From NCBI GenBank assembly GCA_016208105.1, contig JACQYS010000011.1, positions 62,001 to 126,000 on the forward strand: a DNA stretch of 64,000 bases, written 5' to 3'. The stretch's first letter is position 1. Each line of letters starts with the position of its first letter. Both the position numbers and the translations under genes were made by a program. This DNA comes from Desulfovibrio sp. (lineage in GTDB: Bacteria > Desulfobacterota > Desulfovibrionia > Desulfovibrionales > Desulfovibrionaceae). The notes below the pieces were generated by a model, which was not told the origin of the DNA, ran no database searches, and worked only from the letters and a program-made list of their open reading frames with translations. Below are positions 10,327-25,955 of this stretch, piece by piece.

Positions 10327-10373
10327 ATGACTGCAGGTGAAAATGCCCGTTGAAACCTCGAACCCAATTCAGG
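10310..10373 (+). repeat. Direct repeat copy 2 flanking the DUF2062 gene
   Basis: Partner of 9600-9664. It overlaps the last codons of the DUF2062 gene and the region just before the FKBP-like frame, so the 5' end of that frame may have been rearranged. Confidence 0.55.
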
Positions 10374-10667
10374 GTGAGCAAGAAGGAGAAGGTGACTCGA
10401 TTATCCGACCAGACTATTGCCACACTTGAACTCACACTCGACTGGCAGTGCCTAGAAGCTGCCCATCGTGAACGTTTCCTCGCCCGTAAGGTCAACCCCT
10501 GGCGTGACATCTTCCCGCCTGGGCTGCAGGATGCCCTGACCGGCCTTGAGGCGGGCCAGTCTGCCAAGATGGATTACGCTCCTGGCCAGGCCATCTCGGA
10601 TTACGATCCATCTCTTGTCTATCATTTGCCCGAAAGTGCGTTTTCCATCTCATCGCTCAACGGATGA
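10374..10667 (+). CDS. FKBP/SlyD-like domain, front part of a TGA-interrupted gene
   Basis: A frame resembling SlyD-type FKBP peptidyl-prolyl isomerases: VTRLSDQTIATLELTL as the first strand, NPWRDIFPPGLQDALTGLEA (the motif before the flap) and SAKMDYAPGQAISDYDPSLV. It stops at TGA 10665-10667, but the same frame continues immediately as IVPRDGRYYPRGLFAGLPG, the expected rest of the FKBP region, and then a methyltransferase. The two pieces look like one gene split by a nonsense codon. The start is uncertain: GTG 10374, GTG 10392 or TTG 10350, all with weak or badly spaced ribosome-binding sites, possibly because the repeat at 10310-10373 has disturbed the 5' end. Confidence 0.55.
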   Translation: MSKKEKVTRLSDQTIATLELTLDWQCLEAAHRERFLARKVNPWRDIFPPGLQDALTGLEAGQSAKMDYAPGQAISDYDPSLVYHLPESAFSISSLNG

Positions 10668-10673
10668 GGGATT

Positions 10674-11603
10674 GTGCCCAGGGACGGCCGGTACTACCCT
10701 CGCGGGTTGTTTGCCGGGCTGCCCGGAGTATTTCCCCAGGATACACGCCCCGCTCGTGTCCTCCAAGCCGGGCCGGACGGTTTGGTGGTTGACCTGAACC
10801 ATCCCTTGGCCGGGAGGGCGACCAGCCTGACGGCCCGCGTCGATTCCGTAACCCCCAAAAGGTCTGACACAGGCGGCAGGCTTTCCCATTGGCTGGAAGA
10901 GATGGCTGATTTTGGCCCAGGGATGCAGGCGAGACGATGCGTGGGAGTGCCCACGGATTTCAGCGGTCCTGAAGGTCCGGCGCGCTTGGACGAGACGGAC
11001 GATGCCCTTTTCTACTCGAAGGCCCGCCTGATTGGCCATGTGGATTCCCAGGCATCGATAAACCTTTGCGACATATACTCAAAGAGGCTTCAACCCGGAG
11101 ACAAGGTTCTGGATCTCATGTCCAGCATGCAGTCCCACCTGGGTTCCGAGCCAGACCTGATGGTAACCGGCCTCGGAATGAACGCCGAGGAACTCGAGGC
11201 CAACCCTGTCCTCGCCCGGCGTACGGTCCGGGATGTGAATGCCAGCCCCTCTCTGCCATATTCGGACGGCGAATTCGACGCGGTGGTCTCGAGCCTGTCG
11301 ATTGAGTACTTGATTGACCCCAGAGCCGTGGTGCATGAATGCGCTCGGGTTCTGCGATCCGGCGGGCGGTTCATGGTCGGGTTTTCAAACCGATGGTTCC
11401 CTACCAAGGCCAACTTTCTGTGGCTCGATTTGCACGAGTATGAAAGAGTTGGTCTGGTGCTTGATTATCTTCTGGAGAGTGGCTGTTTCAAGGAATTGTG
11501 GACGGAAAGTGTCCGCAACTGGTGGCGGCCGGCCGACGATCCTCACGTGCGGCAGACCTGGATCAGCGATCCGGTCTATGTGGTTGGGGGGACGAGAGTA
11601 TAG
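10674..11603 (+). CDS. FKBP remainder plus SAM-dependent methyltransferase
   Basis: In the same frame as the preceding FKBP-like piece and separated from it by one TGA. Residues about 1-60 complete the FKBP-like part (RYYPRGLFAGLPGVFPQ, DGLVVDLNHPLAGR). Residues about 140-260 form a class I methyltransferase with a weakened motif I (VLDLMSSMQSH), SLPYSDGEFDAVVSSLSIEY and VLRSGGRFMVGFSNRWFPTK. If translated alone it would begin at GTG 10674 with no good ribosome-binding site. The target is unknown. The loss of the Gly-rich motif I (L-M-S-S in place of G-x-G) is also seen in known non-canonical members, so activity is uncertain. Confidence 0.7.
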   Translation: MPRDGRYYPRGLFAGLPGVFPQDTRPARVLQAGPDGLVVDLNHPLAGRATSLTARVDSVTPKRSDTGGRLSHWLEEMADFGPGMQARRCVGVPTDFSGPEGPARLDETDDALFYSKARLIGHVDSQASINLCDIYSKRLQPGDKVLDLMSSMQSHLGSEPDLMVTGLGMNAEELEANPVLARRTVRDVNASPSLPYSDGEFDAVVSSLSIEYLIDPRAVVHECARVLRSGGRFMVGFSNRWFPTKANFLWLDLHEYERVGLVLDYLLESGCFKELWTESVRNWWRPADDPHVRQTWISDPVYVVGGTRV

Positions 11604-11722
11604 AACTGCATCCCGGCTCTGGCCGCAGGGCAAGTTGCATCCAGATATATGTTTCAGACCGATCTCTTTGACATGGAGACCACAATGGTTATGATTTCGT
11701 CTATTTCTGCAGGTGGATGCAC

Positions 11723-12199
11723 ATGATGGAAAACAGCAGTTCAAAATCTCTCCAGGATAAAACGGACGATCACCTGATGAACGTACTTGTTAAATTGCTA
11801 CGCTATGCAGTGCGCATTTTGGCAGTACTTATGGTCCTGGTGATCTGGTGGGGCGTTGCAGATGTAGTCTACGTTCTATACTCTCGTATTTCATCGCATC
11901 CTCATTATTTGCTTGAGATCAGCGATATTTTTGCTACGTTCGGTGCGTTCATGGCCGTGCTGATTGCAATAGAAATTTTCGTAAATATTACAAGTTACTT
12001 ACGAGAAAACGTCATTCACGTTAAAGTGGTTCTGGCGACAGCTTTCATGGCTGTTGCCCGAAAGGTCATTGTGCTGGATTATAACAATGTCAGTTCAGAC
12101 TATGTTTTTGCTACCGCTGCACTGGTACTCGCGCTGGCTGTGGCCTATTGGCTGGCCGTGGTCAAAAACACCTCGGGTGAAAGCCCTGGGGAACTCTAA
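11723..12199 (+). CDS. PsiE-family phosphate-starvation-inducible membrane protein
   Basis: A 158-aa inner-membrane protein of the PsiE family (PF06146), whose E. coli member is induced by phosphate starvation but has no known biochemical role. Four hydrophobic segments are visible: YAVRILAVLMVLVIWWGVA, IFATFGAFMAVLIAIEIFV, VKVVLATAFMAVARKVIVL and FATAALVLALAVAYWLAVV. The family motif around LLEISDIF and IEIFVNI is present. ATG 11723 is chosen because AGGTGG lies 6 bases upstream. The gene is more AT-rich than its surroundings, suggesting later acquisition. Confidence 0.82.
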   Translation: MMENSSSKSLQDKTDDHLMNVLVKLLRYAVRILAVLMVLVIWWGVADVVYVLYSRISSHPHYLLEISDIFATFGAFMAVLIAIEIFVNITSYLRENVIHVKVVLATAFMAVARKVIVLDYNNVSSDYVFATAALVLALAVAYWLAVVKNTSGESPGEL

Positions 12200-12347
12200 T
12201 CGTGGTCTATCCGTAAAATGAGTAGTACCTGGTCCCCGGATGCTGCCCCTTGCTGGCTTGGGTGCAATGAGGGAGGGTGTCGGAGCAGCAAAGGCGAAAA
12301 GACGGCGGGTATCTGAAGCATGGTCGCCCAGGCGAATGGAAATTCCG

Positions 12348-12800
12348 ATGACCAAATCCTTCAAGAGGTTCTTGGCAATGTCCATGTTGTCAGTTTTGTT
12401 CGCCGCATGCACGTCGGGCCGTCCAGACCTCCCGGCCGAGGGGGAGGGCACATTCGCGGCCTGCCCCGAATCTCCGAACTGCGTATCGAGCCAGGCAACA
12501 GACGAACGCCACCACATCGCTCCGCTGGGCTTCAAGGGCGATCCCCAGGAATCATTCGACAAGCTCAAGAAGTTGCTCGCCGGGCGAAAGGACACAAAAA
12601 TCATAACCGAAAGCCCGACCCGCATCGTGGCTGAATTCCATACGCTTCTTTTCGTGGATGACGGCCTGTTCCTGCTGGACCCGAAAGGGCAGGCCATCCA
12701 TGTGCGCTCCGCCTCCCGCATAGGGTATTGGGACTTGGGCAAGAACCGCACGCGGATCGAACAAATCCGCAAAGAATTCTATGAGGCTGACAAGACGTAG
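12348..12800 (+). CDS. DUF1499 lipoprotein
   Basis: A 150-aa exported lipoprotein. The N-terminus FKRFLAMSMLSVLFAAC has a lipobox with lipidated C21. The DUF1499 family motif follows: CPESPNCVSS near residue 38, then the IAPLGF segment, TRIVAEFHTLLFVDDGLFLL and the C-terminal RIEQIRKEF. Function is unknown; the family is widespread in proteobacteria and photosynthetic organisms. The start is weakly supported (GGA 7 bases upstream); ATG 12336 is an alternative. It is convergent with the EAL-HDOD gene, and the 181 bases between them show no clear terminator. Confidence 0.82.
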   Translation: MTKSFKRFLAMSMLSVLFAACTSGRPDLPAEGEGTFAACPESPNCVSSQATDERHHIAPLGFKGDPQESFDKLKKLLAGRKDTKIITESPTRIVAEFHTLLFVDDGLFLLDPKGQAIHVRSASRIGYWDLGKNRTRIEQIRKEFYEADKT

Positions 12801-12981
12801 CCCATGCCGTGGAAACGTTGGGATGCCTTTAATCCGACCGACCACTGCCGGTGAATGCGCGCATGGTGTGCAAAGCATGTGTCCCCATTGCGGGAGAGCT
12901 GCTCTTTCACGTCCATCGCGACATTGACATGGCTCACCTAGCAAGTGCGAATTGGGCGGGGCCAGGGCACTCTTTCGTCCC

Positions 12982-14256
12982 TCACTCCTCCCGGGTCGAC
13001 TCGCCCAGGATCTCCCGGGTCCATTTCATGGCTTCAATGTAGAGAAGGCTTGTTTCCCAGGGGTTCAGCCGCTTTTCCTTTATCATCTGGCTTATCCTGT
13101 CCCAGTTGGCCTGCTCGAAGTTCTCCACCAGTTCCAGCCAGAAGCGGGCCTTGTCGTCCCGGCCCAAGAGGGCGTCCTTCACATCGTCGCCAAGGGGCAG
13201 CCCCCCCAGCACGTCTTCCATGGGGATGCCCAGAAGCACGTCCAGCATGGAGAAGATGCCCATGAAGAACATGGACTCCGAGGGCATGTTCACGTGCTTG
13301 TCCGACTCGCTCAGAAGTTCCAGGAACCTGGCCCGCTGCACCGAGGTGAGGGCCGCGGCCTGGGCGTTGCCCATGGCGTCCATGTCCGAGAGGATGATGA
13401 CCCGAAGCCAGCGCACGATCTGCTTCTGGCCCAAAATCATGATGGCCTGCACCAAAGACTCCACCTTCTTGGCCTGGCCGAAGTAGGCGGAGTTCACGTA
13501 CCGGAGCAGCCGGTAGCTTATGGACACGTCGTGGGAGATGGTCTTGGCCAGTTCCTTGAAATCGAAGTCCTCCTTGCCGATCTCCTGCATGAGCTTGAGT
13601 TTGGAGGTCTCGTTGGAACTGATCTTCTTGCCGGGGATTATCTCGGGCTTTTTGAAGAAGAAGCCCTGGAAGTAGTCGAAGCCGAGCTTTCTGGTAAGCT
13701 CGAAGATCTTGCGGTTCTCGATCTTCTCGGCCAGGAGCTTACAGCCGTAGGGCTTTAAGGTGTTGAAGATCCGTATGACTTCCTGGGGCGTCTGGCCCAG
13801 GATGTCCACCTTCACGATGTCCGCCAGGGCTATGAGCTCCTCGTAGCCGGGCTGGCCCACGAAGTCGTCCAGGGCCAGCTTGAACCCGGCTTTTTTAAGT
13901 TCCTGGCAGGCCCCGATGACCTCTGGGCTCGGCTCCACGGTCTCTAAAATCTCGATGATGCACTTGTCCGAGGGCAGGGTGTGGGCCGCGCCGCTTAAAA
14001 GCATGTGCTGCGGGAAGTTTATGAGCACGCACTTGCCCTTTTCGATGCCGGGCGCGGCCAGGAAGAACCCGTCGCACAGCACCTGGGAGGTGGCCACGTC
14101 CTCGTCCACGAAGGTGGCCTCCCCGGCCTTGCCCGAGCCGCGAAAGAGAAGCTCGAAGCCCCAGATCTGGCCCTTACGGTCAAATATGGGCTGCTTGGCC
14201 ACGAAGATGGGGGAGCCTGAAGGCTCCGCGCTGACGACGGTTTCGGTCTGGCTCAT
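12982..14256 (-). CDS. EAL-HDOD (YuxH-type) signalling protein
   Basis: A 424-aa cytoplasmic protein. Residues about 15-210 form an EAL-fold domain, but the catalytic EAL motif reads FELLFR and the DDFGTG-type loop reads LDDFVGQPGYEEL, so c-di-GMP hydrolysis is unlikely; it may bind the nucleotide or only scaffold. Residues about 215-405 form an HDOD domain (FDFKELAKTISHDVSISYRL, YVNSAYFGQ, IMILGQKQIVRWL). Such proteins link c-di-GMP to motility or stress in other bacteria. It has no operon partner. A decayed copy of its C-terminus lies at 1805-1986. Confidence 0.9.
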   Translation of the reverse strand: MSQTETVVSAEPSGSPIFVAKQPIFDRKGQIWGFELLFRGSGKAGEATFVDEDVATSQVLCDGFFLAAPGIEKGKCVLINFPQHMLLSGAAHTLPSDKCIIEILETVEPSPEVIGACQELKKAGFKLALDDFVGQPGYEELIALADIVKVDILGQTPQEVIRIFNTLKPYGCKLLAEKIENRKIFELTRKLGFDYFQGFFFKKPEIIPGKKISSNETSKLKLMQEIGKEDFDFKELAKTISHDVSISYRLLRYVNSAYFGQAKKVESLVQAIMILGQKQIVRWLRVIILSDMDAMGNAQAAALTSVQRARFLELLSESDKHVNMPSESMFFMGIFSMLDVLLGIPMEDVLGGLPLGDDVKDALLGRDDKARFWLELVENFEQANWDRISQMIKEKRLNPWETSLLYIEAMKWTREILGESTREE

Positions 14257-14657
14257 GTCATGCGTTTTGTTTCACGTTATCCCCGAACAACTGGTTGTTT
14301 TTGAAAACCTTACACGTATTCCTAGCACTCCAGGCGGACCGGGGCAACGGGGATGCCCGTTCCGTGGTTCCGTTCGCAGAGGGGCCCGAAGTGTACAGGC
14401 GGCAGTAAAACCAACGTCAATTCGTGTGTTTTCACGCGCGTAAGCTCCGTAACCGCGTCAATCCCCTTTGGTCTGCTTTTTTAAGGGGGTAGCCTGCCTC
14501 TGGTTAAGTTGCGCCCGCGCTGTTGACATATGATTTTTAAATTAGTAGCACGACTTTCCGGTAACACGAAATTCAAAAAAAGGTACACACCTGGCAGATA
14601 ATGCTTAATAGACTGTAATTTCACAATTTAACCATTAAATTCGTTCAAGGAAGTGCC
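14257..14657 (+). promoter_or_regulatory. Regulatory region upstream of the TonB receptor operon
   Basis: 400 bases without a gene. A CCCCTT/AAGGGG hairpin surrounds a T run near 14463-14490, followed by a TTGACA (14523-14528) in a strongly AT-rich stretch (to about 14650). No convincing -10 at the right distance and no exact Fur or Zur box was found. Metal-dependent control is likely from the genes downstream, but no site can be named. Confidence 0.35.
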
Positions 14658-16676
14658 ATGAAAACCTGTCTCGCGTTCGTGCTGGCCGCCGTCATCCTTG
14701 CCGCTCAACCTCAAAGTGTTCGGGCACAGGACGCGAAGGGGGAACAGAAACAGGAAGTGGCCCTGGACGAGGTCAAGGTGGTCGCTCCGCCAATCATCGA
14801 GGGCAACCAGGTGGACCGATACGCCGGACAGACCACCACGGTCACCAAAGAACAGATTTCGGACATGAACGCCCCGGATATGACCTCTGCCTTAAGGCGC
14901 ACGCCCGGGGTCAACATATCCCGGTACAACGTCATCGGGTCCTACGGCGGGGCGGAAGGCGGCGGCGTTTTCGTGCGGGGCATGGGCACCAGCAGGCCCG
15001 GTTCCGAACTGGCCACCCAGATCGACGGCGCTCCCGCCTACATGGGGCTGTGGAATCACCCTCTTGTCGATTTTTTGAGCGTCGACCCCGCCTACAACAT
15101 CCGCGTGTTCAAGAGCGCCCAGCCCATGAGCGCGTTCAACAACGCCTTCGCCGCCCTGGACGTCACCCCAAAGCGCATGGAGAAAGAGGGCTTCTTCACC
15201 AAGGGCACCGGACAGTACGGAAGCTTCAACACCTGGATGCAGACGGCGGAACACGGGGGGAAATCCGGCAATTTCGATTACTACGTGGGCCAGAGCTTCC
15301 GCAGCTCCGACGGCCACAGGCCGAACTCCGACGGCAGGCTCACAGCCTACTACGCTCTGGCCGGGTACAAGCTTTCCGACAATCTGGAAGTGACGGGCAC
15401 CGTGCTGCACACCGACAACCAGGCCAATGATCCAGGCCCCGAGGGACAACCGTCAAGCCGCAGCGGCCTGTACACCACCCAGTTCACGCACGGGGTGGTC
15501 ACCCTGGCGGACAACTTCGACTGGGGCAAAGGGCACCTGAAGCTCTACGCCAACTCGGGCACAGGCTATTGGTACAACCAGTCGGGAACCGCCAACGACA
15601 CGCTCTCCGACTCGGTTCTCTACGGCGGCAGGTTCCGCCAGACGTTGAACCTCTGGAAGGGCGGGGAAATCCTGGCTGGCGCCGACCTGGATTTCATGAG
15701 CGGCCATGCCATTTTCACCAACGACCTCACCATCGGCACTGTGAGGCTTGGCGGGCTGGCCGTGCCGGTGATCACCAACAATCCCCAGGCGGAATTCGCC
15801 TGGCGCACTTGGAGAGTGTTCACCCCGTACCTGGGCGTTTCGCAGAAGTTCGGCGAGGGCGACAAGGAAAAGAACAAGGACGACTGGTACGTCATCCCTT
15901 CAGGGGGCGTCCGGCTCTACACCCACAGCGAATTTCCCTCGGAGTGGTCGCCCCAGGCCGGAGTGATTCTCGGCTGGAAGGGCTTAGAACTCCACGGGAA
16001 CTACTCCCGTGGCGTAAGCTATCCCGGACTCAACGTGGCAGTCTTTTCGGCCAACGTCATTTCAACTCTCGGCCAGCGCTGGCGCGACCTCAGGGCCGAA
16101 GTCACGGACCATTTCGAGGCCGGAGCCTCCTACAGCTACGATGACAAGGCCAAGCTGGACGTGACGTTCTACTCGGACCACGGGTCGAACAAGTACGTGA
16201 TGTATCCGGCCACGGGAGCTCCGCAAGGCTTCGCCAACATCGCCAAGTTCGACATCCAAGGCGTGGAATCCACCCTGACCGTCACCCCGCTCAAGAACCT
16301 GTCTTTGTTCGCTGGAATGAATTACCTGAACGTGGACCCCAAATCCCTGCCGTATTCCCCCAAGTGGACCCTCTCCTTCGGGGGCAACTACCTCTTCCTG
16401 GACCATTTCAAATTGTCCGCCGACGCCCAGTATGTCGACCAGCAGTACGTGTTGTCCCAGGCCAGGCGCATCAATGCCTACAACACCAGCAAGGTGGACG
16501 CCTTCTGGCTCTTGAACGCCAAGTTCTCCTATCTGTTCAGCTTCGAGGCATGGAAAAAAACCGATGCTGAAGTGTTCGTGGCGGTCAACAACATCACCAA
16601 CACCTTCTACAAGTACCGTCCCGGCTATCCCATGCCGCCCACGTCGGTCATGACCGGCCTGTCTGTCAGTTTCTAA
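14658..16676 (+). CDS. TonB-dependent outer-membrane receptor
   Basis: A 672-aa outer-membrane receptor for high-affinity uptake of a metal or metal complex. It has a signal peptide (LAFVLAAVILAAQPQSVRAQ), a TonB-box-like LDEVKVVAP near residue 36, and a plug domain about 55-170 (VTKEQISDMNAPDMTSALRR, TPGVNIS, GGGVFVRGMG). The 22-strand barrel follows and ends with the canonical aromatic terminus LSVSF. It is the first gene of a tightly packed set with two methyltransferases, an ABC-3 family importer and its own TonB, so substrate crosses outer and inner membrane by dedicated machinery. The substrate is not evident; no His-rich loop typical of zinc receptors is seen. Confidence 0.92.
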   Translation: MKTCLAFVLAAVILAAQPQSVRAQDAKGEQKQEVALDEVKVVAPPIIEGNQVDRYAGQTTTVTKEQISDMNAPDMTSALRRTPGVNISRYNVIGSYGGAEGGGVFVRGMGTSRPGSELATQIDGAPAYMGLWNHPLVDFLSVDPAYNIRVFKSAQPMSAFNNAFAALDVTPKRMEKEGFFTKGTGQYGSFNTWMQTAEHGGKSGNFDYYVGQSFRSSDGHRPNSDGRLTAYYALAGYKLSDNLEVTGTVLHTDNQANDPGPEGQPSSRSGLYTTQFTHGVVTLADNFDWGKGHLKLYANSGTGYWYNQSGTANDTLSDSVLYGGRFRQTLNLWKGGEILAGADLDFMSGHAIFTNDLTIGTVRLGGLAVPVITNNPQAEFAWRTWRVFTPYLGVSQKFGEGDKEKNKDDWYVIPSGGVRLYTHSEFPSEWSPQAGVILGWKGLELHGNYSRGVSYPGLNVAVFSANVISTLGQRWRDLRAEVTDHFEAGASYSYDDKAKLDVTFYSDHGSNKYVMYPATGAPQGFANIAKFDIQGVESTLTVTPLKNLSLFAGMNYLNVDPKSLPYSPKWTLSFGGNYLFLDHFKLSADAQYVDQQYVLSQARRINAYNTSKVDAFWLLNAKFSYLFSFEAWKKTDAEVFVAVNNITNTFYKYRPGYPMPPTSVMTGLSVSF

Positions 16677-16741
16677 CGAATGAGCCCGGGTGGATAAGTC
16701 CGGATACGCCATCCGGAATCCTTCCCGGCCTGGGAGTCGGC

Positions 16742-17443
16742 ATGGAGCGCAAAACGGAAGTGAATGCGGGGTTCGACCGCTGGAGCGTGTTCGAGAAAGC
16801 CCGGAAAGCAAACCGCATGCACCACGCGCAGGCTTACCAGACCCTCCAGCACACGCTCGCAGAAACGTTCTCAATGCCGCCCCGCATCCTGGACCTGGGA
16901 TGCGGCGACGCGGGCGACATGGCCGGCGTGCTCCGCTTCCAGCCCGTTCAATCCTACACCGGGGTGGACAACGACCCGGACGTGCTTTCGCGCGCGGAGA
17001 TGGCTTTCAAGGAGCTTTCCGTGCCCGCGCGCCTTATTCTTGGCGGATACGAGGACGCGCTCCGCAGTGGACCCGGCAGTTACGACGTGATCTGGCTGGG
17101 GCTTTTCCTCCATCACCTCCCCGGTGCGAAGAAGCGGGAGTTCTTTCAAGAGGCCCACAGGTTGATCCGCTCCGGCGGGGTGCTGCTGGTCCACGATCCG
17201 GTGCTTAAGCAGGGCGAGACCCGCCAGGAGTACATCGCGCGCATCGAAAGCGCCTGCCGGGCGGGGTGGCCGGAACTGACGGCCGCCGAGAAGGACATGA
17301 TGACCAGGCACTGGAGCCTGCACGGCCGCCAGGAAAGCCTTTCCGCGCTCGAATCCATGGCCCTGGCGGGTGGATTTGGCTGCATGGAGGTTCTCTGGAA
17401 CGACCCGTGCCAATTCTATGCGGTGATGGCCTTTTGGAATTGA
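16742..17443 (+). CDS. SAM-dependent methyltransferase 1 of the uptake operon
   Basis: A 233-aa cytoplasmic class I methyltransferase. Motif I is ILDLGCGDAGD (about residue 49), the acidic residue after strand 2 is in TGVDNDPDVL, motif post-I/IV is YDVIWLGLFLHHL, and strand 5 is RLIRSGGVLLVHDPV. A 65-base gap follows the receptor gene and 11 bases separate it from a second methyltransferase, so it belongs to the metal-uptake operon. Target unknown; a small molecule is more likely than DNA or rRNA because no target-recognition domain is visible. Confidence 0.87.
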   Translation: MERKTEVNAGFDRWSVFEKARKANRMHHAQAYQTLQHTLAETFSMPPRILDLGCGDAGDMAGVLRFQPVQSYTGVDNDPDVLSRAEMAFKELSVPARLILGGYEDALRSGPGSYDVIWLGLFLHHLPGAKKREFFQEAHRLIRSGGVLLVHDPVLKQGETRQEYIARIESACRAGWPELTAAEKDMMTRHWSLHGRQESLSALESMALAGGFGCMEVLWNDPCQFYAVMAFWN

Positions 17444-17454
17444 AGGAGAATTGC

Positions 17455-18054
17455 ATGAGCGATCCCAGGTCAGCATTTTTCGACGAACGCGCCGCCGGGT
17501 GGGAGTCCCTGTGTTATCCGGACAAGGTCCGTGCCCGGCTGTGGCCCCTTGTGCAATCCTTGGGACTCCCCTGGGGCGGCACTGTCCTGGACATGGGCTC
17601 GGGCCCGGGGACGCTTCTGCACTATGAAAGGCGGGCCATAGGGCCTGAAGGCACCCTTTTTTCCTTCGACGTATCCTTCGAGATGATGCGCCAGGCCATG
17701 GCCAAGGACCCGGGCGGGGCCATGTGCCGCATGCAGGCAACGGCCATGCTCCTGCCGCTCAAGGACGCCTCCTTCGACGCCCTGGTCTGCTTCGCCGCCT
17801 TCCCCCATTTCTCCGACAAGCCGGCGGCCATGGCCGAAATGGCCAGGGTGTCCAAAAGGGGTGGGAAGCTTTTCATAGCCCACCTGCTCAGCCGGGCGGA
17901 ACTCATGAGCCACCACAAGACGCATCCGGCCGTTGCCGATGACCACCTGCCGGACACGCCCGCGATGCGGCGGCTTTTCATGGAGGCGGGCTTCGAAGAC
18001 CCGGTCATAATCGATGAGCCGGGGCGGTATCTGGCCACGGCCCGCAAACCCTAG
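17455..18054 (+). CDS. SAM-dependent methyltransferase 2 of the uptake operon
   Basis: A 199-aa cytoplasmic class I methyltransferase (Methyltransf_11 type). Motif I is VLDMGSGPGT (about residue 44), then FSFDVSFEMMRQA, LLPLKDASFDALVCFAAFPH and RVSKRGGKLFIAHLLSR. The ATG at 17455 follows GAAGGAGAATTGC; the same frame is open further upstream, but that part overlaps gene 1. It is not a close duplicate of methyltransferase 1: the two share fold and motifs only. It may act with gene 1 on a chelator or on the imported metal compound, which is inference. Confidence 0.87.
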   Translation: MSDPRSAFFDERAAGWESLCYPDKVRARLWPLVQSLGLPWGGTVLDMGSGPGTLLHYERRAIGPEGTLFSFDVSFEMMRQAMAKDPGGAMCRMQATAMLLPLKDASFDALVCFAAFPHFSDKPAAMAEMARVSKRGGKLFIAHLLSRAELMSHHKTHPAVADDHLPDTPAMRRLFMEAGFEDPVIIDEPGRYLATARKP

Positions 18055-18065
18055 CGGGGAAAAGC

Positions 18066-18887
18066 ATGACTTCTCTCGTCAGATTTGGCGTTCTTTTGCT
18101 TTGCCTGGCCGCCGGGCCCGCCCTGGCCGATGCCCCGGTGCCGGTCATGGCCGGGACCACGCTGGTGGAGGACATCCTCACCGGCCTTGGCGGGAAGGAT
18201 GTGGCCGTGAAGACGGTCATCCCGGGGGCGGCCTGCCCGGGCCATTACGACGTAAAGACCTCGGACGTGGCCTTTCTCGCCAGGGCGAGCGTCATTCTCC
18301 TGCATGACTGGCAGGAACGCATGCCCGCCCTGGTCTCCATCATCGATGCCGTGCCGGGCGCGAAACAAAAGGTCCGCGTGCTCAAGGCCAAGGGCAACTG
18401 GATGGTGCCCGAAAGGCAGGCCGAGGCAGCCATGGAAATAGCGGAGGTTCTGCAAGAACTGGCTCCGGGCCGGGCCGGACGGTACGCTGAGGCGGTCCGC
18501 GGACGCCTCGCCTCGATTCAGGCCGTGGCGGAAAGAGAGAAGGAGCGGATACGGTCCGCCGGTCTTGCGGGGGCTCCGGTCATCTGCGACGTGATGCAGC
18601 GCCCGTTGGTGGAGTTCTTGGGGTTTAGGGTGGTCGCGGACTATGGCCGGTTCGAGGAGATGGGGCCGGAGGCCCTGGGCAGAACCATCACGGCCGCGAA
18701 ATTGTCCGGCGCGAAACTCGTTCTCGACAATCTCCAATCCACCGGGGCCGCCGGGAAGTCCCTGGCTGAGGACATCGGCGCGGGGCACGCCACGCTGACC
18801 AATTTCCCCGGCGGCTTCCCAGGCGCGGACACCTGGGAGGACGCTGTGAGCCGCAATGTGGACCTTATCTTGGCGGCGGGGAAATGA
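18066..18887 (+). CDS. ZnuA/TroA-like periplasmic metal-binding protein
   Basis: A 273-aa exported solute-binding protein of the cluster A-I (ZnuA/TroA/PsaA) family, feeding the ATPase and permease next to it. The signal peptide is LVRFGVLLLCLAAGPALA. The fold is recognised by VMAGTTLVEDILTGLGG, the CPGHYDVKTSDV segment at the position of the usual DPHxYE motif (H60), LLHDW (H80) and VLDNLQSTGAAGKSLAEDIG. The third usual His (in vxxHdaf) is replaced by C174 in VICDVMQ, and the fourth site reads LDN rather than an Asp/Glu motif. There is no His-rich loop. Substrate is therefore not obviously zinc or manganese. Confidence 0.85.
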   Translation: MTSLVRFGVLLLCLAAGPALADAPVPVMAGTTLVEDILTGLGGKDVAVKTVIPGAACPGHYDVKTSDVAFLARASVILLHDWQERMPALVSIIDAVPGAKQKVRVLKAKGNWMVPERQAEAAMEIAEVLQELAPGRAGRYAEAVRGRLASIQAVAEREKERIRSAGLAGAPVICDVMQRPLVEFLGFRVVADYGRFEEMGPEALGRTITAAKLSGAKLVLDNLQSTGAAGKSLAEDIGAGHATLTNFPGGFPGADTWEDAVSRNVDLILAAGK

Positions 18888-19684
18888 CCGCCACCGGCTG
18901 GCACACACAGGCCGAGCCGGTGGCCAGGCTTGAAAACGTGCGGATTTTCCGGCGCGGGCGTCTGACCCTGAGTGTTGATGCGCTCGACCTGCAACCGGGG
19001 GAGTGCCTGGGAATCATCGGGCCAAACGGGGCCGGCAAAAGTACGCTGCTGTCCGCCTTGTCCGGTTTTCTGATGGCGGACGCTGGTACTATCACCCTGT
19101 TCGGCCAGCGTGTCAGCAATGCAAACGCCACGCGGCTGAGAAAACGCGTGGCCACGGTTTCGCAGTTGTCCGCGGTGGACCCCAGGCTTCCCATCACCGT
19201 GCATGAATCGGTCATGACGGGCGGTTTCGGAAAGCTTGGCCTGTGGCGCAGGCCGGGTAGGGCGCTGGCAGACAAGGCGGCCCGGATGATGGAACTGACC
19301 GGCATCGGGCATCTGGCCGGGCGCCCCCTCGGGCTTATTTCCGGCGGAGAGCGCCAGAGGACGGCCATTGCCAGGGCGCTTACCCAGGAGCCGGACATCC
19401 TGCTTCTTGATGAACCCACCTCGGCCCTGGACTGGAAGGCCCAGCGGGAAATCCTGGCCCTCATCCGGGACATCCATGCGGAAATCAAGCTCTGTGTGGC
19501 TCTTGTCACCCACGATCTGAACGCGCTGCCAGGCATGTGTACCCGCGTGGTCCAAATGCAAGGCGGTTCCATCTGCTGGTCCGGACCCGCCGCCGAAGCG
19601 CTCGACCCGGCCCGCCTGACCGGTCTGTATGGAACGCCGTTTCAGGTGATCTCACATGCCGGAACGTCCGTTGTTCTTTTTTGA
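18884..19684 (+). CDS. ABC transporter ATPase (ZnuC-like)
   Basis: A 266-aa cytoplasmic ATPase of a metal or metal-chelate importer. Walker A is GPNGAGKST (about residue 46), the Q-loop is in VATVSQLSAVD, the signature is ISGGERQR (canonical LSGGQ is altered but functional in this family), Walker B is DILLLDEPTSALD, and the switch His is in VTHDL. It overlaps the binding-protein gene by ATGA and the permease follows after 7 bases. By sequence style it could equally serve an iron-chelate importer; the ABC-3 permease next door places it with ZnuABC/TroABC systems. Confidence 0.93.
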   Translation: MTATGWHTQAEPVARLENVRIFRRGRLTLSVDALDLQPGECLGIIGPNGAGKSTLLSALSGFLMADAGTITLFGQRVSNANATRLRKRVATVSQLSAVDPRLPITVHESVMTGGFGKLGLWRRPGRALADKAARMMELTGIGHLAGRPLGLISGGERQRTAIARALTQEPDILLLDEPTSALDWKAQREILALIRDIHAEIKLCVALVTHDLNALPGMCTRVVQMQGGSICWSGPAAEALDPARLTGLYGTPFQVISHAGTSVVLF

Positions 19685-19691
19685 GGCCGCA

Positions 19692-20510
19692 ATGGAAGGA
19701 TACATTTTCGAACACGCCTTCATGCGCAACGCGCTCCTGGCCGGGATTTTCGCCGGAATATCCTGCGGCCTGGTAGGCGTGTTCGCGGTGCTCATGCGCT
19801 TGACCTTCATAGGGGTGTGCCTGGCCCACGCGGCTTTCGCCGGGGGGCTGGCATCGCTGCTGTTGGGAGCCGACCCGCTCTTTGGGGCGCTTGTTCTGAG
19901 CATTGGGGCGGCGGCCGTTATTGGCCCTCTTGCCGACAAGGGAGACGTGTCGCCGGATACGGCAGTGGGCGTCGTGTTCACGGCCATGCTCGGGGTTGCC
20001 ATCTTGTGCCTGGGGATCATGCCCGGGTCAAAAACGGCCGGACTGAACCTCTTGTGGGGCTCGCTTCTTACCGCTGGCAAGCGCGACGTCCTGCTGCTGG
20101 GAGGAGTGGCCACCGCCGTTCTGCTGGGGATAATTGTCTTCTACAAGGAGATACTGGCGGTGGCCTGCCACAGGCAGGTGGCGGCCTGCGTGGGCATTCC
20201 CGCCACGGCGGTGTTTTATGCCATCCTCTTCGCCACCGGAATGACGGTTACCGCCTGTTTGCCGAGCGTGGGAGGCCTTTTGGTGTACAGCCTGATTATA
20301 AACCCGGCTGCGGCGGCCTACCAGCTCACCTACAGGCTGCCCACCATGTTTGTGCTGGCGGCGCTTCTGGGCATGGCCAGCTCCATCTCCGGGCTTCTTC
20401 TGGCCTGGCATACGGATGTGCCAGCCGGTGCCGCCATTGTGGTCTGCTCCAGTCTTTATTTTCTTGCCTGCGCTCTCTTTTCGCCGAAGAAACGCCTGCC
20501 CCGGGAGTGA
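19692..20510 (+). CDS. ABC-3 family metal transporter permease (ZnuB-like)
   Basis: A 272-aa inner-membrane permease with about eight hydrophobic segments. Family marks are FMRNALLAGIFAGISCGLVG, RLTFIGVCLAHAAFAGG and GLLVYSLIINPAAAAYQL near the coupling region. Start 19692 is preferred because family members begin shortly before the FMRNAL motif and GAGG precedes it; ATG 19656 (AGGTGAT upstream) would extend it into the ATPase gene. Located between ATPase and TonB genes with gaps of 7 and 3 bases, it is clearly part of one operon. Confidence 0.92.
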   Translation: MEGYIFEHAFMRNALLAGIFAGISCGLVGVFAVLMRLTFIGVCLAHAAFAGGLASLLLGADPLFGALVLSIGAAAVIGPLADKGDVSPDTAVGVVFTAMLGVAILCLGIMPGSKTAGLNLLWGSLLTAGKRDVLLLGGVATAVLLGIIVFYKEILAVACHRQVAACVGIPATAVFYAILFATGMTVTACLPSVGGLLVYSLIINPAAAAYQLTYRLPTMFVLAALLGMASSISGLLLAWHTDVPAGAAIVVCSSLYFLACALFSPKKRLPRE

Positions 20511-20513
20511 GTC

Positions 20514-21446
20514 ATGCGCCCTGCGGAACTCTTCGAGCATTCCTGGGAGAACCCAGGCCCCAGAAGGGCGGAAAAGCTGCTGCTGGGCGCCGGTGTGTCC
20601 GTGGTTGTGCATTGCGCTGCGATTCTCATCGGGTTGGCGGTCTTAAATATCTCCGGACACGAGGGCGGCGTGGCCGCGGGCCGTGGCGGGGAGGCCGGGC
20701 CGGGATTCATGGTTGTCGATCTGGGTACTCTGCCCGGGCTGGCCTCCTTGCAGGGTGGGACGGGACACGCGGGAATCGATGGTCCCGTCCGGACGGATAA
20801 GAATGCGCCCACGGAAACGGACAAGAAGGTCAGACGCGCCTCACCGGACGCAAACGGCAAGGCCGCCGTCACGAAAACCTCTGAGCAACCGGCCATCCTT
20901 CATGAGAAGAGCGCTCCCCCGGACAGGAAACAGCCGCCTCCCCGGGCGAACGAGACCCAGAGCGCGGCCTCTGGCGAGAATGCGGTCCCGGGAAAGCAAG
21001 ACGGCGCCTCTTCCGGTGCTGAAGCGTCCGGACGCCCGGAAGGGGGTGGGCAATCCGGTCCGGGGCAGGGGAATGGCGCACAGGCTGCCGGATCAGGCCA
21101 GATTGGCCAGGGGGGCGCTGGAACAGGTTCAGGATCGGGTGAGGGAGGAGTGCTCTCCCTGGTTGATGTTGAAAACAAACCGCGTCTCATAAAGCATGTG
21201 GAACCGGACTACCCCGAGGGTGCGAGGAAAAGGGCGATTTCAGGCAAAGTGGTGGCGCGCTTCATAGTGGACGAGGCAGGCATGGTTCACAACCCCGTGG
21301 TATCCTCCTCCGATCCGCCGGGAATCTTCGAGGTCTGCGTGCTGGAAGCCGTGAAGCGCTGGAAGTTCGAGCCCGGAAGGCATCGGGGCCAACCCGTCAG
21401 AGTCTTGGTGTCGGTCCCTGTGCGGTTCGACATCGCCAAACGGTAG
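20514..21446 (+). CDS. TonB-family energy transducer
   Basis: A 310-aa protein anchored in the inner membrane by one helix (LLLGAGVSVVVHCAAILIGL). A long periplasmic linker (residues about 50-215) is rich in Gly, Ser, Gln and charged residues rather than the usual Pro-Glu/Pro-Lys repeats. The C-terminal TonB domain (about 220-308) has VEPDYPEGARKRAISGKVV, VSSSDPPGIFEVCVLEAVKR and WKFEPGRHRGQPV. It supplies proton-motive energy to the receptor at the start of the operon. No ExbB/ExbD genes are nearby, so it must use those encoded elsewhere. It is the last gene; a stem-loop follows. Confidence 0.92.
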   Translation: MRPAELFEHSWENPGPRRAEKLLLGAGVSVVVHCAAILIGLAVLNISGHEGGVAAGRGGEAGPGFMVVDLGTLPGLASLQGGTGHAGIDGPVRTDKNAPTETDKKVRRASPDANGKAAVTKTSEQPAILHEKSAPPDRKQPPPRANETQSAASGENAVPGKQDGASSGAEASGRPEGGGQSGPGQGNGAQAAGSGQIGQGGAGTGSGSGEGGVLSLVDVENKPRLIKHVEPDYPEGARKRAISGKVVARFIVDEAGMVHNPVVSSSDPPGIFEVCVLEAVKRWKFEPGRHRGQPVRVLVSVPVRFDIAKR

Positions 21447-21482
21447 AAGCGGTACTTGAGCTCCTGAGGGGTGGGGCGGTTT

Positions 21483-21520
21483 GCTTCAGCGTGCCCGCAC
21501 GGCAAGTTGCAGGCTGAAGC
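21483..21520. terminator. Hairpin between convergent tonB and HD-GYP genes
   Basis: GCTTCAGC (21483-21490) pairs perfectly with GCTGAAGC (21513-21520). It lies between two convergent genes; neither side has a T run, so terminator function is only suggested by position. Confidence 0.35.
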
Positions 21521-21529
21521 CCGGGCAAC

Positions 21530-22741
21530 CTACCTGAAGAGTTCCTGGAAATGCAGCCGGCACTGCTTGTTGGTGAGGGTGTCGACGATGTCGAAGCGCT
21601 TGTTGTCCTCAGCCATCAGGTCGATGTCCTTCTGCTTGCAGTAGGCGTTGTCGGCATCAAGAATGACGCGCACGCGCGGCCTGAGCAGGTTGTCCGAGTT
21701 CTGCTGGGTGACGAAGGCCTTCTGCCCTGAGCGAAGAACCACGATGGAGCCGATGGGGTAGATGCCGAACATGCTTACGGCCTTGTCCACCAGTTCCGGG
21801 CTGAAGGATTTGCCCCGGAGGTTGTAGATGACGCACAGGGCTTTGTGCGAGCTTATGCCCTCGCGGTAGTACCTGTCGGAACGCAGCGCGTCGTACGTAT
21901 CCAATATGCTGACAATGGACGCGAATTCGTCGATCTCCGCCCCGGCCAGGCCTTGGGGATAGCCGCTGCCGTCGTAGTTCTCGTGGTGGGCGTACACCAC
22001 GCTGACCACTTCCTGGGGCACGTTGCCTTTTTTCAAAAGGATATCCCGGCCGTATACCGGGTGCTTCTTCACCTCGGCATACTCCGCGCTGGTGAGCCTG
22101 CCGGGCTTCTGCAAGATCTTGTCTGAAACGAGCACCTTGCCCACATCGTGCAACAGGCCTGCCGTGCCGAGCCGCTTCTGAATCTCCTGCGAATACCCCA
22201 ATCTCCTGCCGGCCAGGGTGGCAAGCAAAGCCACGTTCAGGGAATGCGAATAGTTGTAGGGATCATTCTGGCGCATCCGGGAAACGAGAGCCAGCGGGAT
22301 GACCATTTCGGTCTCGGTCTCGCTTATGGTCTGGGCCAGCATGCCCCAGGCCTCGGTGTCTATGTTTTTGGAGGCTTCCAGATCCTTGTAGAGAACTTTG
22401 CACTGGGCCACGAGCTTTGTGTACTGGGCGTCGGCCTTTTTGATGTGGCCCACCATGTCTTGTAACGCCGGGGTGTCGGTGTCGTTCTCCGAAGGCGATG
22501 CCAGCGGTCCGAACACGGATTCGAACAGCTCTTTCTCCTTGGGATGCTTACGGAAGTAGGTTCCCGCTTCGGTTTCCACATAGGCTTCGGAATACTGCTC
22601 GGCCAGCAAGGCGGCTATTGCGTTCTGGTCCTTAAGAACCCCCTCCTGCAGGTAGATGTGGGGGTTGCCATCTTGAGACAGGCCGGGATTGGTGGTGTAC
22701 ATTCCGGGTTTGAGCTGCGTGGTGGCACATTTAACGATCAT
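21530..22741 (-). CDS. HD-GYP domain c-di-GMP phosphodiesterase (DUF3391 N-terminus)
   Basis: A 403-aa cytoplasmic protein likely degrading cyclic di-GMP. The N-terminal part (residues about 1-110) starts MIVKCATTQLKPGMYTTNPG, as in DUF3391-HD-GYP proteins. The HD-GYP domain (about 160-330) has LLHDVGK, KKHPVYGRDIL, YAHHENYDGSGYPQGL and SILDTYDALRSDR, so all catalytic metal ligands appear present. The start at 22741 follows GGGAGAAGAAC; a longer frame from 22783 lacks such a site. It is divergent from the GNAT gene. Confidence 0.9.
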   Translation of the reverse strand: MIVKCATTQLKPGMYTTNPGLSQDGNPHIYLQEGVLKDQNAIAALLAEQYSEAYVETEAGTYFRKHPKEKELFESVFGPLASPSENDTDTPALQDMVGHIKKADAQYTKLVAQCKVLYKDLEASKNIDTEAWGMLAQTISETETEMVIPLALVSRMRQNDPYNYSHSLNVALLATLAGRRLGYSQEIQKRLGTAGLLHDVGKVLVSDKILQKPGRLTSAEYAEVKKHPVYGRDILLKKGNVPQEVVSVVYAHHENYDGSGYPQGLAGAEIDEFASIVSILDTYDALRSDRYYREGISSHKALCVIYNLRGKSFSPELVDKAVSMFGIYPIGSIVVLRSGQKAFVTQQNSDNLLRPRVRVILDADNAYCKQKDIDLMAEDNKRFDIVDTLTNKQCRLHFQELFR

Positions 22742-22886
22742 GTTCGGTTCTTCTCCCAGGTATCGCCAGGTACGAAACGCCAAAGCCCTTCACCGCACGG
22801 CTTGGCGAGTGCGTCATCCTTTCGGAAATGCGTCCTTTTTGCGACGCTCTGGCTGTTTGACCACGCGATAAGGCTGACAAACTTTT

Positions 22887-22904
22887 GAACTCTATTATGA
22901 GTTC
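22887..22904. promoter_or_regulatory. Palindrome in the HD-GYP/GNAT intergenic region
   Basis: GAACTC-TATTAT-GAGTTC is a perfect dyad in the only AT-rich part of the 309-base divergent intergenic region (22742-23050). It is a candidate operator or overlapping promoter; nothing else recognisable lies there. Confidence 0.3.
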
Positions 22905-23050
22905 TTGAGGAGAGTAAAGTAGGGCATCAAGAATTTTCATTGGAGAAGGCAGTCCGGTCCCGGGCCGTTTTCCTTCTGGACTGGGGCGGGGTGAGGGTTT
23001 AACGCCAAGACGGCAGAAGAGAGACCATCACTGACGCCAAGGATGCCACG

Positions 23051-23581
23051 ATGAGCGATTACATGTTTGTGGAGTGTACGTACGTGCGGCATGCTGACAA
23101 GGTTCTGGAAATCCTGAACGAGGCCATCTTAAACTCCACCGCTTTGTACGACTACGAGCCAAGGCCGCCGCAGAGCATGGTGGGATGGTTCGATGCCAAG
23201 CGGACCGGCGGTTTCCCGGTGATCGGCGCTGAAGACGAGTCCGGCGCGCTTTTGGGGTTCGCGAGCTACGGCACGTTTCGGGCTTGGCCCGCCTACAAGT
23301 ACACGGTGGAGCACAGCGTGTACGTGCACCAGGGCCATCGCGGCCGGGGGGTCGGCCGGGCTTTGATGCTGAAGCTGATCCAGGCGGCCCGTAGTAGCGA
23401 TGTGCATGCCATGATCGGCGGGATAGACGCCACGAACGCCGGGAGCATCGCGCTGCACGAGAAGGTTGGGTTCAGGCACGCGGGTACGCTTCCCCAGGTG
23501 GGCTTCAAGTTCGGCCGCTGGCTCGACCTGGCCTTCTATCAGCTCCTTCTGGACACGCCGGAAAATCCTGCCGACGGTTAA
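23051..23581 (+). CDS. GNAT N-acetyltransferase (phosphinothricin acetyltransferase-like)
   Basis: A 176-aa cytoplasmic acetyl-CoA-dependent acetyltransferase of the Pat/MddA/YncA group, which acetylate small amines such as phosphinothricin or methionine sulfoximine. Typical segments are ILNEAILNSTALYDYEPRP near the N-terminus, FASYGTFRAWPAYKYTVEHS and the CoA-binding VHQGHRGRGVGRALML (about residue 92), plus ATNAGSIALHEKVGF and VGFKFGRWLDLAFYQLLL at the end. Single gene; the start is supported only by a weak AAGGAT. Confidence 0.88.
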   Translation: MSDYMFVECTYVRHADKVLEILNEAILNSTALYDYEPRPPQSMVGWFDAKRTGGFPVIGAEDESGALLGFASYGTFRAWPAYKYTVEHSVYVHQGHRGRGVGRALMLKLIQAARSSDVHAMIGGIDATNAGSIALHEKVGFRHAGTLPQVGFKFGRWLDLAFYQLLLDTPENPADG

Positions 23582-23797
23582 CCCCCCTAAGATGCTCACG
23601 GATCTCCTCTCGGACCAGCCGGTGCAGGCAGGGAAGTAAGCCCGGGGAGGAACCTTTTCGGTCGGTATCGCAGTCTCTGGACTTGGAACATCCATCCGGA
23701 TTATCAGGCGTATAAAGCACTTGGGCGGCCTCTTTGAATGGTCGCGCCGTGGGCGCTTATGGTGTCCGGATACGTAAAAACCCGCCTGGAGGTTGGA

Positions 23798-25804
23798 ATG
23801 CTCTCTTTCAAGGCCGTTTTGCGAAGTGTCGGTTTCCTTGCGCTCTTTACCGGGGGCGTCTGCCTGGCCGCGCCGCCCTGCCCAGAAGGTTCCACCTGCA
23901 CCACGGCGCCCAAGCCCGCCTCCCAGGCAACCAAGGCCGCCAACGAGAAGCTCAAGGCGCTGCTCGACTTCGGCGACATGCGCGACTTCGAGGAAGCCTC
24001 CCGCGGCTTCATCGCCCCATTGCCGAACGACGGGGTCATAAAGAACAGCTCCGGCCAGACCGCCTGGGACTTGCGGCCCTACGCCTTCATCGAGCGCACG
24101 GAAATCGCGCCGGACACGGTCAACCCCAGCCTGTGGCGCCAGTGCCGCCTGGTGATGAAGGGCGGGCTCTTCAAGGTTACGGACGGCCTCTACCAGGTGC
24201 GCAATGCCGACGTCTCCAACCTGACCATCTACGAGGGCAAGACCGGCATCATCCTGGCCGACCCCCTGGTCTCGGCAGAGACGGCCAAGGCCGCCCTGGA
24301 GCTCTACTACGCCCACAGGCCCCGCAAGCCCGTGGTGGCTGTGTTGTATTCGCACAGCCACACCGACCACTACGGCGGCGTGCGCGGCGTGGTGGATGAA
24401 AACGACGTCAAGGCGGGCAAGGTCAAGATCATCGCGCCGGTGGGCTTCATGGAGGCCGCCGTGGCCGAGAACGTGCTGGCTGGCACGGCCATGGGCAGGC
24501 GGGCCATGTACATGTACGGCAACCTGCTGGAGCCCTCCCCGGTGGGCCAGGTGGGCTCGGGCCTGGGGCTTACGCTGTCTTCGGGCACCATCACCCTCAT
24601 CGCGCCAACGGATTTGATCACCCGCACCGGCCAGGTCATGAACATCGACGGCCTGGACTTCGAGTTCATGATGGCCCCGGACACCGAGGCCCCGGCCGAG
24701 ATGCACTGGTATGTGCCCAAAATGAAAGCCGTAACCGCGGCCGAGAACTGCTGCCACACCATGCACAACATCTACACCCTGCGCGGGGCCAAGATCCGCG
24801 ATCCGCTCTCCTGGTCGAAGTATCTGGACCAGACCCTGGCCCTGTGGGGCGACAAGGCCGAAATAATGTACGGCATGCACAACTGGCCCGTGTGGGGAGG
24901 TGACAGAGTGCGCGAGGTGCTAAGCCTCGGCCGGGACGGCTACCGCTTCATAAACGACCAGACCCTGCGCATGGCCAACCACGGCATGCGCCCCGACGAG
25001 ATAGCCGAGGCCATCGCCTTCCCGCAGTCCCTGGAGCGCCATTGGGCCATGCGCGGCTACTACGGAACGCTCCGGCACAACGTGAAAGGCACGTATGTGA
25101 AGTACCTGGGCTGGTTCGACGGCAACCCGGCCAACTTGAACGTCCTGCCCCCGGTGGACGCCGCCAAGCGCTACGTGGAGTACATGGGCGGCGCGGACAA
25201 GATACTGAAGAAGGCCAAGAGCGACTTCGAAAAGGGCGAATACCGCTGGGTGGCCGAGGTGATGAACAAGGTGGTGTTCGCGGAACCAGGCAACAAGGCC
25301 GCCCGGGAGCTGGCCGCCGACGCCCTGGAGCAGATGGGCTACCAGGCAGAATCCGGCCCGTGGCGCAACTTCTATCTTACCGGCGCCAAGGAGCTGCGCG
25401 AGGGCATGAAGCCCCTGACCGGCGGCAAGAGCGCCAGCGTGGACATCCTGCGCGGGCTCTCGCCGGACCAGATCTTCGACGCCCTGGCCGTGCGCCTGAA
25501 TGCGGAGAAGGCCGAGGGTAAGCGTTTGGCCATCAATTTCATCTTCCCCGACCTCAAGGAGAAGTTCTCGCTCAGCCTGGAGAACTGCGCCCTGTCGCAC
25601 CGGGCGAACGCCCAGGCCCCGGACCCGGACGCCACCGTGACCCTGCCCAGGGAGGTGTTTCTGGGCGTGCTCCTGGGCAAGACCACGCTCGCCAAGGAGA
25701 TGGAGGCGGGCCGCGCCTCCGTGCAGGGCAAGATCGGCGCCCTGGCCGAGCTTCTGGCCATGGGCGACGCCGTGAACCCCTGGTTCGCCATAGTCACGCC
25801 CTGA
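23798..25804 (+). CDS. Alkyl/aryl-sulfatase, metallo-beta-lactamase type (SdsA1-like)
   Basis: A 668-aa exported enzyme hydrolysing long-chain alkyl sulfates such as dodecyl sulfate to alcohol and sulfate. Signal peptide LSFKAVLRSVGFLALFTGGV is followed by LAAPPC. The N-terminal metallo-beta-lactamase domain (about 100-320) has the di-zinc motif SHSHTDHYGGV, with AENCCHTMHN and MYGMHNWPVWGG supplying later ligands. The middle dimerisation domain (YVKYLGWFDGNPANL, YVEYMGG) and C-terminal SCP2-like domain (DQIFDALAVRLNAEKAEG) are present in the family order. The start is set by GGAGG five bases before ATG 23798. In a sulfate-respiring organism the released sulfate could be used as electron acceptor (inference). 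A perfect hairpin follows the stop. Confidence 0.93.
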   Translation: MLSFKAVLRSVGFLALFTGGVCLAAPPCPEGSTCTTAPKPASQATKAANEKLKALLDFGDMRDFEEASRGFIAPLPNDGVIKNSSGQTAWDLRPYAFIERTEIAPDTVNPSLWRQCRLVMKGGLFKVTDGLYQVRNADVSNLTIYEGKTGIILADPLVSAETAKAALELYYAHRPRKPVVAVLYSHSHTDHYGGVRGVVDENDVKAGKVKIIAPVGFMEAAVAENVLAGTAMGRRAMYMYGNLLEPSPVGQVGSGLGLTLSSGTITLIAPTDLITRTGQVMNIDGLDFEFMMAPDTEAPAEMHWYVPKMKAVTAAENCCHTMHNIYTLRGAKIRDPLSWSKYLDQTLALWGDKAEIMYGMHNWPVWGGDRVREVLSLGRDGYRFINDQTLRMANHGMRPDEIAEAIAFPQSLERHWAMRGYYGTLRHNVKGTYVKYLGWFDGNPANLNVLPPVDAAKRYVEYMGGADKILKKAKSDFEKGEYRWVAEVMNKVVFAEPGNKAARELAADALEQMGYQAESGPWRNFYLTGAKELREGMKPLTGGKSASVDILRGLSPDQIFDALAVRLNAEKAEGKRLAINFIFPDLKEKFSLSLENCALSHRANAQAPDPDATVTLPREVFLGVLLGKTTLAKEMEAGRASVQGKIGALAELLAMGDAVNPWFAIVTP

Positions 25805-25828
25805 TGGGGCGTGCGCAGCAAATATGAA

Positions 25829-25870
25829 CAAGGCAGCCACAGCGGCGTTTCCCGCCCTGTGGCTGCCTTG
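25829..25870. terminator. 14-bp perfect hairpin after the sulfatase gene
   Basis: CAAGGCAGCCACAG (25829-25842) pairs perfectly with 25857-25870. It lies between convergent genes 25 bases after the sulfatase stop. No long T run follows on either strand; its perfect stem and position still favour a bidirectional terminator. Confidence 0.6.
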
Positions 25871-25955
25871 CCGTAGGCCCTTTGGCATCGCCGCCAACCA
25901 AGTGGCGTCAGACTGCCATTGAGGGCTGGCTGTTCATGGATGCACAGCCAAAATG

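Follow-up and report, generated by a model that had tools for sequence, protein, structure and literature searches.

A putatively NikR-controlled TonB–ABC-3 uptake operon with a linked methyltransferase in Desulfovibrio

Described metal importers and the Desulfovibrio operon

The zinc and manganese importers ZnuABC and MntABC combine a ZnuA-fold substrate-binding protein (SBP; PF01297) with an ABC ATPase and an ABC-3 permease (PF00950), and NikR-controlled nickel uptake is represented by NikMNQO and NikABCDE. Metallophores of the staphylopine/pseudopaline type use TonB-ABC routes with an S-adenosylmethionine (SAM)-using enzyme in the operon, and FpvC of Pseudomonas aeruginosa, which has the ZnuA fold, serves as the SBP in a siderophore pathway in which, to our knowledge, no methyltransferase takes part. 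Nickel feeds the hydrogenases and CO dehydrogenase of anaerobes. The operon considered here lies on the + strand of a 64-kb stretch of Desulfovibrio sp. DNA (contig JACQYS010000011.1, positions 62,001–126,000), called the window below. Its seven open reading frames (ORFs) encode, in order, a TonB-dependent receptor (TBDR), two class I methyltransferases (MT1 and MT2), a ZnuA-like SBP, an ATPase, an ABC-3 permease and a TonB. The first-pass annotation of the window had proposed a tightly spaced seven-gene operon for uptake of a metal or metal complex. ORF coordinates and family matches confirm the spacing, with gaps of 65, 11, 11, −4 (the SBP and ATPase genes overlap), 7 and 3 bases, and the uptake assignment is upheld with a methyltransferase as a standing part: MT2 is found in 43 of 46 distinct SBP loci, the other three being truncated by contig ends. 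The reading favored here, tentatively and somewhat short of even probability, is that NikR controls the uptake of nickel in an organic complex, and that MT2 methylates the ligand of this complex in the cytoplasm. No TonB-ABC nickel route with a methyltransferase is described in the openly licensed literature searched.

In its proposed mode of working, the window system resembles a siderophore-type TonB-ABC route. As in the staphylopine/pseudopaline and other TonB-ABC metallophore systems, a TBDR and an importer are joined by a SAM-using enzyme, but neither methyltransferase matches nicotianamine synthase, and no opine dehydrogenase or exporter was noticed. Its SBP shares the FpvC fold but belongs to a different sequence class. 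The SBP fold, permease family and ATPase family are held in common with ZnuABC/MntABC, from which window-type operons differ in the four SBP metal ligands, the missing Zur box and the attached MT2; by ligands and control, the system is outside the ZnuABC family. NikR half-sites and a nearby nikR link window-type loci to NikMNQO and NikABCDE, although the importer is of another family and has its own outer-membrane receptor. None of the nickel/cobalt transporter families named in the excerpted text of PMC2667541 is an ABC-3 system, and the present system is not among them.

The substrate-binding protein and its linked methyltransferase

The SBP (18066–18887; ZnuA PF01297, 52.3 bits) retains the overall architecture of its family and has lost the corresponding metal site. 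Its structure model (pLDDT 90.9) matches ZnuA, MntC, YfeA and FpvC chains with TM scores of 0.71–0.79 among the 50 best PDB chains listed, which include the FpvC-Ni chain 6r44. The alignment columns that we take to be the ZnuA metal ligands carry His, His, His and Asp in 26, 30, 30 and 29 of 30 canonical ZnuA sequences. Among the SBP sequences, aligned from 45 of the 46 loci, the first column is Gly in 45/45, the second is Gly in 26/45 with His absent from the four commonest residues, the third is Ser, Ala, Asp or Asn in 44/45, and the fourth is Ser or Thr in 44/45, such that the ligand set is replaced in every sequence. Invariant across all 45 are C57, P58, G59 and H60 (the CPGH motif), N222, Q224, F247 and P248; R195 and D221 (44/45 each, the latter opening the DNxQS motif) and Q178 (42/45) are nearly so. 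CPGH was part of the scan pattern and is present by construction in 18 distinct loci of the species scan; the other sequences were found without it. In a profile comparison with the ZnuA of the same genome, the first ZnuA His falls on G59. An amide-rich pocket containing a single Cys and a single His would suit a chelate better than a bare ion.

MT2 (17455–18054; Methyltransf_11, 60 bits) accompanies the SBP in nearly all loci. At E ≤ 1e-10, the SBP occurs in 16 of 199 genomes of the order, the source genome included. In each of the other 15 loci, a permease and an MT2 homologue stand close to the SBP, and a TBDR homologue is present as well. Of 395 phylum genomes, 17 have the SBP and 59 have MT2 (E ≤ 1e-25), the two coinciding in 16 of the 17 SBP genomes (the exception is G289). 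Searching species genomes with the SBP alignment yielded 20 loci, two of which (L054 and L062) were removed as repeats of L038 and L036; these fall in Desulfovibrio, Desulfobulbaceae, Endomicrobiales, Planctomycetota including Brocadiaceae, and UBP13. The best-scoring named relative of the SBP, from a Desulfovibrio metagenome genome, is 54% identical.

The 43 of 46 loci with MT2 span several phyla, and MT2 stands either between the TBDR and the SBP or behind the permease. Where it is missing (L133, L134 and L143), a contig end lies at the expected position, and G354 and G486, two of the genomes concerned, show an MT2 match on a different contig. A further SBP genome outside the 46 loci, G557, has SBP and MT2 matches 1.8 kb apart on one contig, and MT2 is kept in L056 and L060, where no receptor is seen. 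By comparison, MT2 adjoins canonical ZnuA in 0 of 30 loci of the order, within flanks of 1.5 kb that are shorter than those of most SBP loci; these controls were chosen as the top scorers among matches found in 112 of 150 genomes and are not a random draw. The contrast between the two sets of loci provides good support for MT2 as part of this importer. The first-pass annotation had named absence of the methyltransferases from every orthologous operon as a refutation; this is not what the loci show, and its pairing of two such enzymes survives for MT2 only. MT1 (16742–17443; Methyltransf_25, 51.3 bits) occurs in 3 of the 199 genomes of the order, the source genome included (E ≤ 1e-15), and is an add-on in a few species.

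Of the remaining components, the TBDR (14658–16676; Plug PF07715, 44.5 bits) has a homologue in 39 of 46 SBP loci, and the SBP gene is followed by those for the ATPase (18884–19684; ABC_tran, 118.6 bits), the ABC-3 permease (19692–20510, or from an alternative start at 19656; PF00950, 168.3 bits when scanned from 19656) and TonB (20514–21446; TonB_C, 71.2 bits). Gene order is identical in a second genome of the genus (G183), in which MT1 is 66% and the SBP 64% identical, and the set of TBDR, MT2, SBP, ATPase and permease recurs across many genera; the grouping is therefore more than chance.

Nickel and NikR signals

In the excerpted text of Rodionov et al. (2004, PMC545781), the delta-proteobacterial NikR signal is given as GTGTTAC-[N13/14]-GTAACAC or as the same half-sites everted, and the Desulfovibrio Zur signal as ATGCAACnnnGTTGCAT. 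Half-sites of the form GTARCAC/GTGYTAC are present upstream of 24 of 27 SBP operons, with 34 matches against a background of 0.023 per region (32 matches in 435 kb of the same loci outside these regions) and at most 6 in any of 300 shuffles. The degenerate form GTARCAC was chosen after the upstream sequences had been seen, hence the additional use of a strict count and of later loci: strict half-sites precede 18 of 27 operons, as compared with 0, 1 and 2 of 27 for three scrambled words, and among loci fetched after the pattern was fixed, a half-site occurs in 4 of 10 receptor upstream regions, where 0.24 would be expected. The 27 regions derive from 34 distinct loci, seven of which (L043, L047, L048, L050, L051, L056 and L060) were left out for want of a TBDR or of a clear start. 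For L033, the start used was that of a divergent gene, and the count without this locus is 23/26. Two upstream stretches are short (222 bases in L046, 119 in L144), and L039–L041 are near copies, such that binomial values for these counts overstate the enrichment.

In the window, two predicted half-sites, modeled on the NikR motif of PMC545781, precede the receptor gene on the + strand, GTAGCAC at 14545–14551 and GTAACAC at 14561–14567. The full 64 kb contains three half-sites, and the pair upstream of the operon is the sole such direct pair in the genome; a reversed-pattern control gave 15 matches, so this uniqueness partly reflects a rare word.

Gene context points in the same direction. A nikR gene lies near 8 of 46 SBP loci (L053, L059, L136, L137, L138, L140, L141 and L142), at distances of up to about 2 kb (L141), and near none of the 30 canonical ZnuA loci. 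In L059, nikR (PF08753) is preceded by an exact GTGTTAC-N13-GTAACAC, the consensus in the excerpted PMC545781, and DUF1007 and NicO genes follow MT2. The window itself has no nikR, and a NikR scoring over its cut-off is encoded elsewhere in the genome, together with a full-length large subunit of the [NiFe]-hydrogenase family (736.6 bits). The same genome carries a separate znuA-znuB with a Zur-type box, ATGCAACcaaGTTGCAC, as read from the sequence, and, divergent from it, a cbiM/nikM-cbiQ-cbiO importer. Between them lies an inverted NikR site with 2 mismatches, a quality that 5 of 200 shuffles reach. Zur boxes are found in 0 of 46 SBP loci versus 12 of 30 ZnuA loci.

Nickel control is well supported by these observations, and nickel-controlled uptake appears likely. 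The choice of metals, wide in the first-pass annotation, narrows to nickel rather than zinc or manganese for an SBP devoid of the ZnuA site, and the metal of this system is very probably nickel. The action of NikR on the window operon itself is predicted from its half-sites and from the nikR genes near relatives' operons. Table 4 of PMC545781, in its excerpted form, lists a Desulfotalea psychrophila cluster of unknown function (422176-177) with two NikR sites, which may be this system.

The role of MT2 and competing explanations

MT2 (METHYLTRANSFERASE) is modeled with high confidence (pLDDT 93.2) as a generic class I fold. The glycine-rich SAM motif (G48, G50, G52 and D72) is conserved in 69/69 sequences, as are W16, H118 and H143; H154 (68/69) and C112 and D163 (67/69 each) follow closely. 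In Arabidopsis phosphoethanolamine N-methyltransferase, a His aligns with H118. Profile comparison gives best matches of mixed kind (plant phosphoethanolamine N-methyltransferases, RebM and a putative haloarchaeal methyltransferase) and the fold matches are generic, and a name by homology was rejected on these grounds. MT1 and MT2 match the same broad Pfam domains, and neither reaches a curated NCBIfam cut-off; identity with the DVU_1556 family, for which the matches are far below cut-off, was likewise rejected. Signal-peptide-like N-terminal stretches can be read in the TBDR and SBP sequences and in neither methyltransferase, from which both enzymes should be cytoplasmic.

MT2 also occurs away from the SBP. 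In 28 neighborhoods of this kind, a subset of such genomes, a TBDR homologue is present in 14 (E ≤ 1e-40; 40–46% identical in most of those listed), Peripla_BP_2 in 16, a FecCD permease in 10, FmdE in 10 and a tetrapyrrole methylase in 5. These clusters, from the same phylum, share the MT2 family with the window operon but have another importer family and are richer in FmdE, which occurs in 1 of 46 SBP loci. In the structure of an FmdE protein, two His and two Cys bind a mixture of Zn and Ni, according to the excerpted PMC2954224. Placing the three importer labels on the MT2 tree takes 14 changes, against a mean of 25.1 after shuffling; for the ABC-3 label on its own the number is 7, and well-supported branches force no fewer than 4 of these. 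Importer type has switched repeatedly. It seems to be the cargo, and not the type of importer, that MT2 follows, and MT2 is kept in two loci where no receptor is seen; together, these points suggest that it acts on the imported compound inside the cell. L115, L123, L124, L125 and L132, with MT2 beside Peripla_BP_2, FmdE, FecCD permeases, ATPases and in some a tetrapyrrole methylase, form a second uptake context of MT2 lacking NikR signals. At L145:5042-5964, in a locus without the CPGH-type SBP, MT2 adjoins another ABC-3 permease (35% identical).

A working model can be drawn from these elements. NikR would repress the operon when nickel is plentiful, reserving the system for nickel starvation. 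The receptor, powered by its own TonB, would carry a nickel-organic complex across the outer membrane, and the CPGH-type SBP, without a ZnuA metal site, would deliver this cargo to the ABC-3 importer. The ligand would then be methylated in the cytoplasm by MT2, joined by MT1 in a few species, with SAM as the methyl donor, and the nickel might thereby be freed, or the ligand disposed of or recycled. An organic nickel complex is the somewhat probable cargo, whereas modification of its ligand by MT2 in the cytoplasm is a possibility of just under even weight. A more specific and rather doubtful version casts MT2 as a metal-release enzyme that unloads Ni(II) by SAM-dependent methylation of a ligand donor atom. 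Ni(II), unlike iron in siderophores, would not be freed by reduction, such that methylation would unload it; binding of the complex would fall to the invariant His118 and His143 and the near-invariant His154 and Cys112, and MT2 would stay with its cargo whichever ABC importer serves.

Several observations weigh against this model. The half-sites in the window are repeated in the same orientation at a distance of 16 bases (15 in L028) rather than in the published inverted or everted N13/14 arrangement, and no inverted NikR repeat of the form searched is found in the source genome. Half-sites are missing from 3 of 27 upstream regions and from 6 of the 10 later receptor upstreams. Profile and fold searches returned no namable MT2 relative of known substrate. 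In MT2 loci without the SBP, nikR is near 0 of 28 and a half-site precedes 1 of 13 receptors. MT2 is thus not tied to nickel everywhere, and an intrinsic tie of the enzyme to nickel was set aside on the same counts; the cargo of those loci may contain another metal.

The first-pass annotation had offered three roles for the methyltransferases, of which processing of an imported complex fits best, building of a chelator comes second, and methylation of a metal finds no support. In the chelator version, which we regard as unlikely, a common metabolite and SAM are converted by MT2, alone or together with MT1, into a small nickelophore, which is exported, binds nickel and returns via the receptor and ABC importer. 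Such a role would be in keeping with the tight linkage of MT2 to the importer and with the staphylopine/pseudopaline precedent. It sits poorly with the neighbor gene lists, in which no exporter or second biosynthetic gene recurs (Pfam annotation covers selected neighbors), and with the failure of either methyltransferase to match the nicotianamine-synthase Pfam family at E ≤ 0.001. Less probable still, and by a wide step, is a corrinoid or other tetrapyrrole cargo, salvaged or remodeled by the methyltransferases. The FecCD and Peripla_BP_2 importers and occasional tetrapyrrole methylases of sister MT2 loci suggest it, as do matches to CpaM, a corrinoid protein-associated methyltransferase; at 46.5 bits for MT1 and 30.6 for MT2, these are far below the cut-off of 180, and CpaM identity was rejected. 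Cobalamin control was rejected as well, with no cobalamin riboswitch in window positions 10000–26000, in 12 MT2 loci without the SBP or in 10 SBP loci, and nikR and the NikR half-sites point to nickel instead. An ordinary zinc or manganese importer with a methyltransferase nearby by accident, to which the ABC-3 permease and ZnuA fold would conform, is so improbable as to be set aside, given the altered ligand columns, the absence of Zur boxes from SBP loci, the constancy of MT2 and the separate znuA-znuB of the same genome.

If correct, the proposal of nickel-complex uptake would supply a receptor amenable to testing, a binding protein of a new class and an enzyme that is a candidate for action on a nickel ligand. 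The system would span Desulfobacterota, Endomicrobiales (Elusimicrobiota), Planctomycetota and UBP13, and proteins that resemble zinc importers could be given a better reading.

Some neighboring genes can be recorded in addition. A third class I methyltransferase (10674–11603; Methyltransf_11, 44 bits) is encoded about 3 kb upstream of the window operon and outside it, and the operon is flanked by EAL-HDOD and HD_5/DUF3391 (HD-GYP-like) signaling proteins (12982–14256 and 21530–22783, − strand). An alkyl sulfatase follows at 23738–25804 (Alkyl_sulf_dimr, 214 bits). At L133:4357-5079, a DUF364 gene (putative heavy-metal chelation, 28.4 bits) lies behind an ABC ATPase and is convergent with the CPGH-SBP operon, and in the Endomicrobiales operon of L053, a c-di-GMP riboswitch (12290–12382; 69.9 bits) is found about 0.3 kb behind MT2.

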